Shown piece after piece: positions 36,439 to 51,800 of a DNA stretch of 64,000 bases. Both the position numbers and the translations under genes were made by a program. Every line of letters begins with the position of its first letter. Positions within the stretch are counted from its first letter, which is position 1. Origin of the DNA: Flavobacterium sp. 123 (GTDB lineage Bacteria; Bacteroidota; Bacteroidia; Flavobacteriales; Flavobacteriaceae); the NCBI RefSeq assembly GCF_003634825.1, contig NZ_RBXD01000001.1:1076501-1140500 (forward strand), written 5' to 3'. The notes beneath the pieces were generated by a model that ran no database searches, was not told the DNA's origin, and saw only the letters and a program-made list of their open reading frames with translations.

Positions 36439-38448
36439 TTATTTGTAATTTCTAGCTGCGATTTTAATAAACTCGTATTTCAATTCTTCTTTGTGAAGTT
36501 CCGATTTTGTAACATCGTATCCTTTGTTTTCCCAAGCTCCTACGAACGAGAAGTTTTCGTCATCACGAAGTGTTTCTCCTTCTGAATCTTGATATTCTTC
36601 ACGGAAGTGACCTCCACAAGATTCTTTACGTTGCAAAGCATCCATAGCCATTAATTGTCCTAATTCGATGAAATCGGCAACACGAAGTGCTTTTTCTAAT
36701 TCAGGATTCAATTCGTCTGAACTTCCAGGAACATAAACTTCTTTATAGAATTCTTCTTTTAAAGCAGCAATTTCGGCAATGGCTTCTGTCAAACCTTTTT
36801 CATTACGCCCCATTCCTACTTTATTCCACATAATATGACCTAAACGTTTGTGGAAATGATCCACAGTTTTAGTTCCATTGTTAGACAAGAATTTATTGAT
36901 TTGCTCTTTTACATTATTTTCGGCAGCTACGAATTCTGGCAAATCTGTAGAGATTTTTCCAGTACGAATATCATCAGCTAAATAATTAGAAACGGTGTAA
37001 GGCAATACAAAATATCCATCGGCCAAACCTTGCATCAAGGCCGAAGCTCCTAAACGGTTCGCTCCGTGGTCAGAGAAGTTAGCTTCTCCTGCAACGAAAC
37101 AACCTGGAATAGTCGATTGTAAGTTATAATCAACCCAAACTCCACCCATTGTATAGTGAACTGCAGGGTAAATTTTCATTGGAGTTTCATAAGGATTCTC
37201 ATCCGTTATTTTTTGGTACATCGTAAACAAGTTACCGTATTTTTCTTCCAACCATTTTTTTCCTAAAGTAAGAATTTCTTCTTGAGAAGGATTGTGATTT
37301 CCTTTGGCGAAAGCCGTTTGTTTTCCTTTGGATTGAATCTCTGTAGAGAAATCAAGGTAAACGCCTTCGTTAGTGTCATTAGCCTCAATTCCGCGACCTT
37401 CGTCACAAACTTCTTTTCCTGCTCTTGAAGCCACATCGCGAGGAACTAAGTTACCAAATGCTGGATATTTTCTTTCTAAGTAATAATCTCTATCTTCTTC
37501 CGCAATTTGTGTTGGTTTCATTTTACCAGCACGAATCGCTTCTGCATCTTCTTTTTTCTTTGGAACCCAAATACGTCCTGAGTTTCTTAACGACTCAGAC
37601 ATTAATGTCAATTTAGATTGATTGGTACCGTGAACTGGAATACAAGTTGGGTGAATCTGTACGTAACAAGGATTTGCGAACAAAGCTCCTTGTTTGTGAA
37701 TTTTCCAACCAGCAGTTACATTCGATCCCATTGCATTAGTAGAAAGAAAATAAACGTTTCCGTATCCTCCAGTAGCAATAATCACGGCGTGTGCTGAATG
37801 TCTTTCTAATTCACCTGTGATCAAATTACGAGCAATGATTCCACGAGCTTTTCCGTCTACTTTTACCAATTCCAACATTTCATGACGGTTGTACATATCG
37901 ATTTTTCCTAAACCGATTTGTCTTGATAAAGAAGAATAAGCTCCTAATAATAATTGTTGTCCTGTTTGTCCAGCGGCATAAAAAGTACGTTGTACTTGTG
38001 TACCACCAAAAGAACGATTGTCCAACATTCCACCATAATCACGGGCAAAAGGAACTCCTTGGGCCACACATTGGTCGATGATATTTCCAGAAACTTCCGC
38101 TAAACGATGAACGTTTGCTTCACGTGCTCTGTAATCTCCACCTTTAATTGTATCATAAAACAAACGGAAAGTACTATCTCCGTCATTTTGATAATTTTTT
38201 GCAGCATTAATACCTCCTTGTGCTGCGATTGAGTGCGCACGACGTGGAGAATCTTGGTAACAAAATGCTTTTACATTATAACCCATTTCGGCAAAAGATG
38301 CTGCTGCCGAAGCACCAGCCAATCCAGTTCCTACTACGATAATATCTATTTTTGGTCGGTTGTTTGGAGCAACTAACTTTAAGTGATCTTTATAATCAGT
38401 CCATTTTTGTGAAATGTGACCTTCTGGTATTTTAGAATCTAGTTTCAT
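36439..38448 (-). CDS. sdhA: Succinate dehydrogenase/fumarate reductase flavoprotein
   Basis: 669 aa. FAD Rossmann motif [22 protein letters not shown] (about 34-55), the covalent-flavin His in [14 protein letters not shown] region and the substrate site HPTCIP (about 267), with the catalytic Arg in the capping segment. The capping domain and a C-terminal helical part follow. It interconverts succinate and fumarate at the cytoplasmic side of the membrane. Middle gene of sdhCAB; 12 bp after sdhC. Confidence 0.97.
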
Positions 38449-48853: not shown

Positions 48854-51800
48854 TTACAAATTTACTATATCGATTTCTTTCCCTATGTATACCAATGCCT
48901 TTTTAACTACTTTGTATCCCATTTTCTCAATAGCATCTTGATAATTTTCCAATTGTTGTTGGTATTTAACATTATGCGTTCCAGTTTTGTAATCCAATAA
49001 TAAAACTTCTTTGTTTTTAGTCAAAACCATTCGGTCAGGTTTTACGGTTTTACCTTCTTTTTGAATAATCGTTTGCTCATTCAAAACCTCATTACCTTCA
49101 GCAAAACAAATTGAAAGTTCTGGATGACTGACAATTTCTTGAATCGTTTTATAAACTAATTCTTTTTGGCTTAAGGTAATTAATCCGTTTTCAATAGCCT
49201 TTGTGATTGCCAAATCAACATCTCCTTTAGTTTTCACAAAAGATAAAATTTCGTGAATAACGTTCCCATATTCTATAGCTTCTTGTTGGAGTGTTCCCCA
49301 CATTAAAGCTTCTCGTTGTGCAATTTTTATATTCTTTGGGTTTAAAATTTCAGAAACTAATGGAATCGTTTTAGACGTATCAATATGCTTTTTCTCAACA
49401 GACAGTTTCAATGGATTACCAAATTCATATTCGAATTTATTTTCATCGAAATCACCTTTATTAGCTAAATAATTAATAAAAAAGGCGCACATATTATTTT
49501 TTGGAACTTCTCCTTTATTAGACAAATTCATATTCGAAATAACATACAATTGCTCTTCGGCTCGTGTTAAAGCAACGTACAAAACATTTATATTGTCTAA
49601 TAATTCTTCCTGCTTTTTCTGATTGTAAACTTCCGCTGCCGCTTCTCCAAAACCTTCCACAGCGCTACTATTATCTATTAAAACTTTTGGCAATCCAAAA
49701 TCTTCTTCTTCGGCTTGAATCCATAATTTTGGTTTTGGATCTTTACTGTATTCATTTTCTGCAAAAGGCATTATTACTACCGGAAATTCCAATCCTTTAG
49801 AAGTATGAATGGTCATAATTCGCACAGCGTTTTTACCTTCTGGTGATGGGATACTGAATTTTTCTGAGTTTTTGTCCCAGAAATTCAAGAAATCCGAAAT
49901 CCCCGCTTGATTGCGAATATCTCGTTCGAGAACGATATCCATAAAATACTGAACATAAGAATTCCCCTCCCCGACCCTCCCCGAATGGGATGGAGCCTTT
50001 ACTTGCATATTGGAGTTTTGAAAATTTTCTTGGTTTACTAATTCACTTTTTATTTTATTTAAAACATAATTAATATTTGTTAAAACTTCATTATTTGTAA
50101 ATCGAATTACTTTATATCCTAATTCATTTAAGATGATTGTTCGTTCATTATCTAATTGAATTTGCTCTTCGGTAAAATGATAATCACCATCAACTTCAAT
50201 TATTAATTTTCTTGACAAACAGACAAAGTCAACTATAAAATCATTTATCAAATGCTGGTGCCTAAATTTGTAATCTAACGCTTTTGATCTCAACTCGGAC
50301 CATACTATTTTTTCAGCATCTGTTGGAGTTTTTCGCATTCCCTGAGCTTTTTCTATCAACAAATGAGAATATTTCCCGCCAGTCATATATCCCAACTTTC
50401 GGGTTTCGTCTCCTCCTCCTTTGGAGGAGGCTGGGAGGAGGAATTTAGAAACTATAACCTCAACCGCTTCATACAAGGATTTTTTTCTGATGTTTTGAAA
50501 AGACAAACTCACGTTAAAACTCTCAAGCCAGGTCTCAAATTCCTTTTCATTTACATGTCCCATTCCTTGTGCAATAAAATCATTAATAGGCAATTTATCT
50601 TGTCTGTTTTGGGCTAAATAATATAGGAAGTTGGCTTTTGACTCTTTGTCAGAATTGTTTTTTAGATATTTTAATAAATGAATAATAAATCGAACTTCAG
50701 TGGCGTTTTTTATCATCAAAGTTTCTGATGACAAAAGTGGAATTCCTTGTTCTGTCAAATAATTAGCAACGGCAATTCCTTGACTACGTTTTCTAGTCAA
50801 AATAACAATATCCTTATATTCGAAACCTTGTTTTACTACTTTCTGAATGGTATTCAACGTTGCTAAAACATATAAATCCGTTTTATCCAAAGCTTCTTCT
50901 TCTCCCGAAGCTTCAGAATTATCGTCTGTTTTTTCGACTTTTGGAATGAAAGAAATATTAACATAACCTCCCGTTTTATCATTTGGTTTTTGATGACTGT
51001 GATTTTCATACAGATCTTTATAGTCCAAATGCTGGAATTCATTCGACAACAATTTAAAGAAATCATTGTTAAATTCGATTATTTGAGAATAGGAACGGTA
51101 ATTTTTATCTAAATGCTCTAACTTTTTATCAGGATTACTGAATGGATTTTGGTCTTTACTCAACTCGATAAACTGTTCGGCTTTCCCACCACGCCAGCGG
51201 TAAATAGATTGTTTTGGATCGCCCACAATCATCAAAGTTCCTTTTACTCCAAAATCATCCTGACCAGAAAGCGCATTGTCAATCAGTGGAATCAGGTTTT
51301 GCCATTGCATTTCGGAAGTGTCCTGAAATTCATCAATAAAAAAATGTCGGTAGCGTTCCCCCAATCGTTCGTAAATAAAAGGCGCTGGCTGATTCTGGAT
51401 TTCCCGATGGATAATCGCATTAAATTCTGAAATCGAAAGCACATTTTGTTCTTCCTGAATTTTGGCTAATTCGTTACTGACCGTATTTAATAGTGACAAA
51501 GGCGTAATGTTTTTCAAGAACGCTTTATAGAAAAATATCTTTTCGAAAGTTTTGTAAACTTTAGTTAGAAGTTGCAACAAATCAGGAATTATGCCTTCAA
51601 TAATAGCGCTATCTTTGGCTGTTTTATTGATAGCAACATCATCAAATTTGCGAAAAGTTTTATTCTTTGGATTGAATTTACCTTGTTGAATACTCGTAAT
51701 ATGATTAGGAAAAGTACCTCGGGAAAAAGACTTTAGATCAATTCCATTTTTTTCGATTAACGCATAGGCCTCGTCTGCTAACTCAACTGTTTCTTTCTCT

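Follow-up and report, generated by a model that had tools for sequence, protein, structure and literature searches.

A DUF559 nuclease element in frame within an AddA-like gene of Flavobacterium sp. 123: a probable homing-endonuclease-like element with palindromic ends and relatives in other enzyme genes

Flavobacterium sp. 123 has a gene for an AddA/RecB-like helicase-nuclease into which an element of 159 codons (477 bp) has been inserted, and the gene lies within the 64,000 bp of contig NZ_RBXD01000001.1 (positions 1,076,501 to 1,140,500, forward strand) that were analysed here and are called the window. The element encodes a DUF559 nuclease domain and has a GC-rich unit at each end; the components are listed in Table 1 by window position. 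An earlier note, made from the sequence alone, had proposed a stop-free, in-frame DUF559 insert in an AddA-like protein, and this is confirmed by the Pfam match, the open frame and the existence of alleles that lack it. The PF04480 (DUF559) match has an E value of 1.7e-31 and falls within the span of the UvrD_C match of the host protein, and its 108.7 bits against a Pfam gathering score of 20.6 place the domain in the family. All five of the conserved residues checked (E, D, E, D and H) are present, and an AlphaFold model of the domain has a mean pLDDT (predicted local distance difference test score) of 88 and matches PDB entries 3hrl, 3r3p and 1cw0. The segment had also been called GC-rich, but this is true only of its two ends (64.7% and 71%), the whole element being 34.2% GC against 33.5% in the host-gene flanks and its core 28.9%. 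The genome contains a single DUF559 match, and the exact kind of palindrome seen here occurs in it at this one place.

Table 1. Components of the insertion locus, in window coordinates.
Feature	Position	Strand	Remarks
AddA/RecB-like UvrD-type helicase-nuclease host gene, 1209 residues	48854..52483	-	single open frame spanning the insert
Stop-free, in-frame insert of 477 bp (residues 682-840)	49964..50440	-	replaces NPKNS of the empty allele
DUF559 nuclease domain, residues 711-815	50039..50353	-	Pfam match, conserved residues, AlphaFold model
5' (coding-strand) end unit, rich in GC, with a C-rich tail ahead of hairpin CCTCCTCCAAAGGAGGAGG	50407..50440	-	hairpin scan, fold shuffles
3' (coding-strand) end unit, an imperfect hairpin followed by a G-rich tail, in inverted orientation to the 5' unit	49964..49994	-	

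A search of 5.8 billion proteins recovered empty alleles, the AddA proteins P0091 to P0099 (1043-1056 residues), which have no DUF559 domain. Over the flanks, P0091 (1056 residues) agrees with the window protein at 1039 of 1050 residues (99.0% identity), and for P0092-P0095 the identity is 97.0-97.2%, such that five insert-free proteins of 1056 residues have flanks 97-99% identical to those of the window protein. At the junction the window protein reads SKFL-LPASS...VGEG-NSYVQYF and the empty allele SKFLNPKNSNSYVQYF; P0091 has five residues (NPKNS) at the insert position, and the net gain in the window is thus 153 codons. Similar FLNP-like residues occupy the same position in several other species (L093, L104, L107), for which reason the empty form is taken as the older one, in which five residues would have been replaced and 153 codons gained. 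Within residues 652-682 and 841-925 the window protein and P0091 do not differ except at three positions within the replaced stretch. The domain is not a family-wide component, in that AddA is matched in 146 of the 150 genomes of the genus and DUF559 lies within the AddA-like gene in only 11 of these 146. Of the 30 AddA loci with the best scores 28 could be read, and all 28 are free of DUF559; the sample is biased, because uninterrupted loci naturally score best, and several of these loci have scar-like residues. One common scar-like middle is shared by P0102-P0120, 19 rows of the AddA protein list, which holds the best 120 proteins by a score that counts the insert and includes near-copies.

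The reading that we favour, with a probability of roughly 0.68, is that this is a mobile protein-coding selfish element, consisting of a homing-endonuclease-like DUF559 gene with inverted, palindromic, GC-rich ends, lodged in frame in a tolerant loop of its host. No intron or intein would be needed because the element would simply be translated through, and the host enzyme would therefore carry a nuclease domain that protrudes from one of its loops. The nuclease, either as part of its host or as a separate fragment or internal product, would cut or nick an empty allele at the loop; repair off the inserted donor would then copy the element into the cut, and so spread it between strains and species at the same site. 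Arrival in a new gene would be rare, survivors being expected only in frame, in permissive loops or at termini, and copies would decay in place by loss of the nuclease with retention of the frame, leaving short palindrome doublets and scars. The earlier suggestion of a selfish mini-element that survives by being translated through is supported by the empty alleles and by related copies with the same kind of ends. An inner methionine had been proposed as a source of free endonuclease; an ATG lies no more than 30 codons upstream of the domain in 12 of the 15 distinct AddA-site inserts, which leaves this possible for the AddA site, but in 95 of 190 loci overall, and the proposal does not hold in general.

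The same element is found in many other genes. DUF559 matches are present in 80 of the 150 genomes of the genus, and 101 matches of at least 78 bits were counted by hand, 59 of them in open frames of at least 300 residues and 42 in shorter frames, two of which contain internal stops. Of the long-frame matches 56 lie at recurrent sites: 11 in AddA-like genes (the window included), 16 in leucyl-tRNA synthetase (LeuRS; 15 where the editing domain begins and one a second copy further in), 15 at MetH site 1 between the two B12 domains, six at a second MetH site, and eight in RecG; the other three are in type ISP restriction-modification enzymes. Cultured strains with an insert include F. glaciei DSM 19728 (AddA site, L346) and F. 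cucumis DSM 18830 (MetH site 1, L390). Because LeuRS and MetH are occupied at least as often as AddA, the location in a double-strand-break repair enzyme, to which meaning had been attached, is probably incidental. Some single proteins hold two elements, one LeuRS (L066) having an element ahead of the editing domain and another deeper within it, and two MetH genes (L035, L041) having elements at both sites.

Across the phylum, at least 222 of 395 genomes have a DUF559 match. Among the listed cases 49 with open frames of at least 297 residues were examined, and representatives were scanned with Pfam, which identified as further hosts HsdR, HsdM, type ISP and Eco57I-type enzymes, methylmalonyl-CoA mutase, an M23 peptidase, LeuRS at another site, and another UvrD-type helicase. 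Terminal DUF559 fusions are seen with a histidine biosynthesis protein, coproporphyrinogen oxidase, RNase H, HemD and others. Of the best 80 among 574 relatives in a scan of named genomes, 75 are located in open frames of at least 291 residues, a sample biased by a query alignment taken mostly from in-frame elements. These best 80 come from Flavobacterium, Gillisia, Tenacibaculum, Cellulophaga, Dysgonomonas, Prevotella, Mucilaginibacter and other genera, and BLASTP to known hosts shows that LeuRS, RecG and MetH are frequent among their hosts; by motif, and not by a Pfam scan, others are probably IleRS and ValRS, and Gmk, IspF and HutU are probable hosts on the same grounds. Three of 50,697 phage records have a relative at an E value of 1e-5. 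A near-identical empty LeuRS was sought and not found among the 120 LeuRS proteins listed, all of which contain DUF559, the score again counting the insert.

The ends are most informative when the family is considered as a whole. Tailed GC-rich palindromes are present on both sides of 142 of 186 distinct DUF559 loci compared with one of 186 control window pairs, and on at least one side of 171 of the loci compared with 21 of the controls; the 142 include the window locus and nine freestanding genes, the controls come from the same loci, and the scan, looser than a first, strict one, was identical for both. The score for inverted matching of an element's own left and right ends has a median of 32, compared with 19 for ends swapped between hosts, and the inverted match of own ends beats the direct match in 142 of 187 elements. 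Units at both ends are found by the loose scan in 11 of 18 RecG elements. The ends encode variable peptides resembling PPAPEGG or PPSGAGG, and the end sequences differ between hosts. In the window itself the hairpin of the 5' unit folds well (3 of 200 shuffles fold equally well or better) and that of the 3' unit is weak (36 of 200). There are four GC-rich hairpins in the 64 kb, of which two (49975-49993 and 50412-50430) are the element ends and the remaining two (at 38300 and 46026) have no C or G tail. A gapless repeat scan of the window listed 17 inverted pairs, among which the end pair of the element is absent. The claim of imperfect inverted ends of about 31 bp thus stands insofar as the ends align in inverted orientation and follow a family-wide pattern, and is marginal for the window alone; it is because of the palindromes across the family, and not the window ends alone, that the end units rise above chance.

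Freestanding DUF559 genes of the genus also often have inverted units of the same kind, and the strict scan finds at least one unit at 17 of 32 such loci. By eye the units mostly point inward at freestanding genes and outward in in-frame elements. Several short palindromic units stand in a row beside the freestanding genes of L028, L031 and L026. At the LeuRS loop three different end types can be distinguished by eye, and independent insertions at this one loop are suggested for that reason.

Short derivatives without the nuclease are found as well. The AddA loop contains short in-frame inserts without DUF559 in three genomes (L233-L235), and there are two more, L237 in a cut contig and L236 out of frame; ends of the MetH type are seen in four of these five. 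The pattern of these ends was found in 25 of 150 genomes, and when reversed as a control it gave no match. Of 16 regions around copies of these ends, 15 are without known DUF559 places and one is a MetH gene with DUF559; an open frame of at least 90 residues passes through at least one unit in each of the 16, a count that stands without a chance estimate where coding density is high. By hand counts, MetH-type ends away from DUF559 occur in 7 of 19 genomes with DUF559 at a MetH site, compared with 7 of 131 others (Fisher p 0.0003). DUF559-less units run in frame through various genes (L453, L454, L456, L459, L461, L462, L467 and L468), and the genes holding such units are presumably, by eye and by motif, those for a MeaB-fused mutase, dihydrolipoamide acyltransferase, PurL, TrpG, HemC and a glycosyltransferase. 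We note that the LeuRS of G105 (L050) has elsewhere in the protein a second short in-frame palindrome doublet (SPLTPEGG...PPSEGLG), and that in the one-contig genome G112 both inserts, L039 at MetH site 2 and L236 at the AddA loop, are out of frame at a C run in the end unit, which could reflect sequencing error, a pseudogene or phase variation.

A more mixed history emerges from the trees. In a tree of 217 DUF559 domains (107 columns) all 15 distinct AddA-site inserts form one clade (95*), and those of LeuRS and MetH site 1 are scattered, with seven changes (at least two forced) and four changes (at least three forced), respectively. On the tree of 164 AddA flanks the state switches between full and not full at least 17 times when supported branches are counted and 24 times by parsimony, and the window allele pairs with the empty P0091 (99*) and next with other empty alleles (99*). 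The nuclease domain is under purifying selection, the reading frame is maintained through weakly constrained linkers, and four copies that have lost conserved residues remain in frame.

Several observations weigh against the selfish-element interpretation. The window's own inverted ends, taken alone, are marginal, since their score is reached by 47 of 1000 dinucleotide shuffles and by 22.5% of 40 pairings with the ends of other hosts. Across the family an element's own ends outscore every one of the 40 swapped pairs in only 31% of 187 cases, and the RecG elements show no excess of inverted matching (median 17, compared with 18 for swaps). No target-site duplication was identified at the AddA site, where five host residues are replaced instead. 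The DUF559 tree has many unresolved forks. Insert and flank identities are correlated (0.48 over 3828 pairs; mean identity 0.68 for inserts and 0.82 for host flanks) and the insert is more alike than the host flank in only 65 of the 3828 pairs, and therefore much of the insert descent appears to be vertical; taken with the state changes on the host tree, this indicates that inserts at the AddA site have in part been inherited with the host and have also been gained or lost repeatedly. The nearest insert to that of the window is 82% identical and is no proven donor, and the full and empty AddA counts are not frequencies, because the score includes the insert and near-copies are present.

The nuclease has known relatives among homing endonucleases. 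By sequence and by model the window domain is homologous to the catalytic domain of I-Bth0305I (PDB 3r3p), and EDxHD homing endonucleases have been described, with a DUF559 gene placed among them (PMC3943268, PMC9403480). Common to the I-Bth0305I type and the window element are the catalytic domain and a sporadic presence at one site, here with spread in the form of at least 17 state changes against one insert clade, partly vertical. The difference lies in housing, in that I-Bth0305I is a mobile intron protein according to the PDB and the window element is in frame, in neither an intron, an intein nor an intergenic position, although freestanding relatives exist; the Pfam scan of the window protein gave no intein family, and positions 49600-50800 gave no Rfam match up to an E value of 1, with no group I or II intron found.

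Translated insertion has parallels elsewhere. Rickettsia palindromic elements (RPEs) are presented as mobile palindromes that occur in frame within protein genes of unrelated kinds and are translated along with them (PMC10969869, PMC3733652); the DUF559 elements, in a different phylum, share the in-frame insertion in unrelated genes and presumably the translation. As outlined in the same sources, RPEs are about 150 bp, encode a conserved peptide and have no enzyme named, whereas the DUF559 element is about 480 bp and has a nuclease; only its short derivatives resemble an enzyme-less RPE. The earlier likening to Rickettsia palindromic elements, with an enzyme domain added, is nonetheless a fair description. 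A homing-type insertion that is read through without stops, and in which no splicing element was detected, is reported for the ShiLan domain in a phage methylase, for which a lone LAGLIDADG insertion is also mentioned (PMC11855218). According to that report ShiLan has an HNH endonuclease in another frame of a phage gene called not essential; the DUF559 element, by comparison, uses the host's own frame, has a Vsr-like fold and palindromic ends, and occurs in many bacterial genes. Elements of this in-frame DUF559 kind were not found described in searches of open-licence PMC papers.

REP (repetitive extragenic palindromic) sequences and REPINs (REP doublets forming hairpins) associated with RAYTs (REP-associated tyrosine transposases) offer a further likeness, being, as characterised in PMC3733652, doublets of hairpins with asymmetric tails that adjoin a gene for a DNA-processing enzyme. 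They differ in having a tyrosine transposase in place of the DUF559 nuclease, and the DUF559 units lie inside coding frames. Movement in this manner is the strongest rival, although we think it unlikely to account for the element: the tailed palindromes would themselves be what moves, travelling as doublets that may or may not enclose DUF559, through nicking or hairpin processing by DUF559 or an unknown transposase, with in-frame cases as survivors and no homing from allele to allele needed. In its favour are the in-frame doublets that have MetH-type ends and no DUF559, both at the AddA loop (L234 and L235, and L237 in its cut contig) and in other genes, the excess of extra MetH-type ends in genomes with DUF559 at a MetH site, the units beside many freestanding DUF559 genes, and the several end subfamilies seen by eye at one LeuRS loop. 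Taken alone, however, it leaves unexplained the repeated re-occupation of the AddA site by one insert clade, and duplication of target bases is not seen. A Y1 tyrosine transposase was rejected as carrier of the units, 18 of 20 Y1_Tnp loci in nine genomes being free of them and the hits at the other two chance-like, which counts against that class of enzyme and not against DUF559 itself. Homing and end-unit movement may both be at work, with entry into new genes due to one of them and occupation of old sites to the other.

A quite improbable alternative is passive spread, in which insert-bearing alleles of AddA, LeuRS and other genes are exchanged by homologous recombination and the nuclease plays no part in spread and is retained for some purpose of the host, for example defence. 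The insert history does follow the host in part, as the correlation of 0.48 indicates, and a DUF559 protein can act on its own cell's DNA, as reported for Caulobacter VsrA in a paper that places a DUF559 protein behind a DNA damage response (PMC12907096). VsrA and Neisseria NGO0050 (PDB 3hrl) belong to the same DUF559/Vsr-like family and are separate proteins, and mobility is absent from what that report describes. Identity between the window protein and P0091 up to both junctions, save for the replaced stretch, argues against allele exchange, an objection that an unsampled donor of the same species would lift; the presence of one nuclease in metabolic and translation enzymes without a common function argues against a host role. 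It is very hard to credit that DUF559 is an ordinary fused domain, useful to the helicase-nuclease and other host proteins: purifying selection on the domain would fit, a repair enzyme with two nucleases is conceivable and restriction-modification hosts could use one, but near-identical AddA alleles lack it, as do all but the 11 AddA-like genes noted above, and the same element with transposon-like ends recurs in MetH, LeuRS, RecG, coproporphyrinogen oxidase and more. Equally remote is removal after all, as an unrecognised intein, intron or translational bypass element, which palindromic ends and the ease of tolerating an insertion in LeuRS-like enzymes if the segment were removed might recommend, and against which stand the lack of intein and Rfam matches, the frame kept through weakly constrained linkers and in the four copies with lost residues, and end sequences that vary between hosts.

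Homing endonucleases of the textbook kind hide in introns or inteins, since an unspliced insert would in most cases harm its host gene. The element described here appears to exploit loops able to accommodate an entire folded domain, in enzymes whose loss a cell could hardly afford, hosts which would also shield it against deletion, and it would join two kinds of selfish DNA that have so far been separate, in-frame palindromic elements and homing endonucleases. We lean slightly towards a phylum-wide, splicing-free homing class, in which a Vsr-like nuclease sits in loops of enzymes such as LeuRS, MetH, RecG and AddA, homes, makes palindrome-based jumps and leaves short in-frame relics that reshape loops. 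Many DUF559 domains would thereby gain a likely function, and the natural filled and empty alleles of one protein, with 99% flank identity, are suited to direct tests.

The occupied sites also map insertion-tolerant loops in aminoacyl-tRNA synthetases, MetH and helicases, and would in some cases explain the odd annotation of tRNA ligases and helicases as "DUF559 domain-containing protein". Among the synthetases, a LeuRS of 1768 residues (P0204) has a PF10592 match in addition to DUF559, perhaps a further insertion, and in L146, L149, L151 and L164 the LeuRS loop has no DUF559 and contains other peptide inserts (VIASETKQS-like or QSSEP-like) that are perhaps other palindromic repeats.
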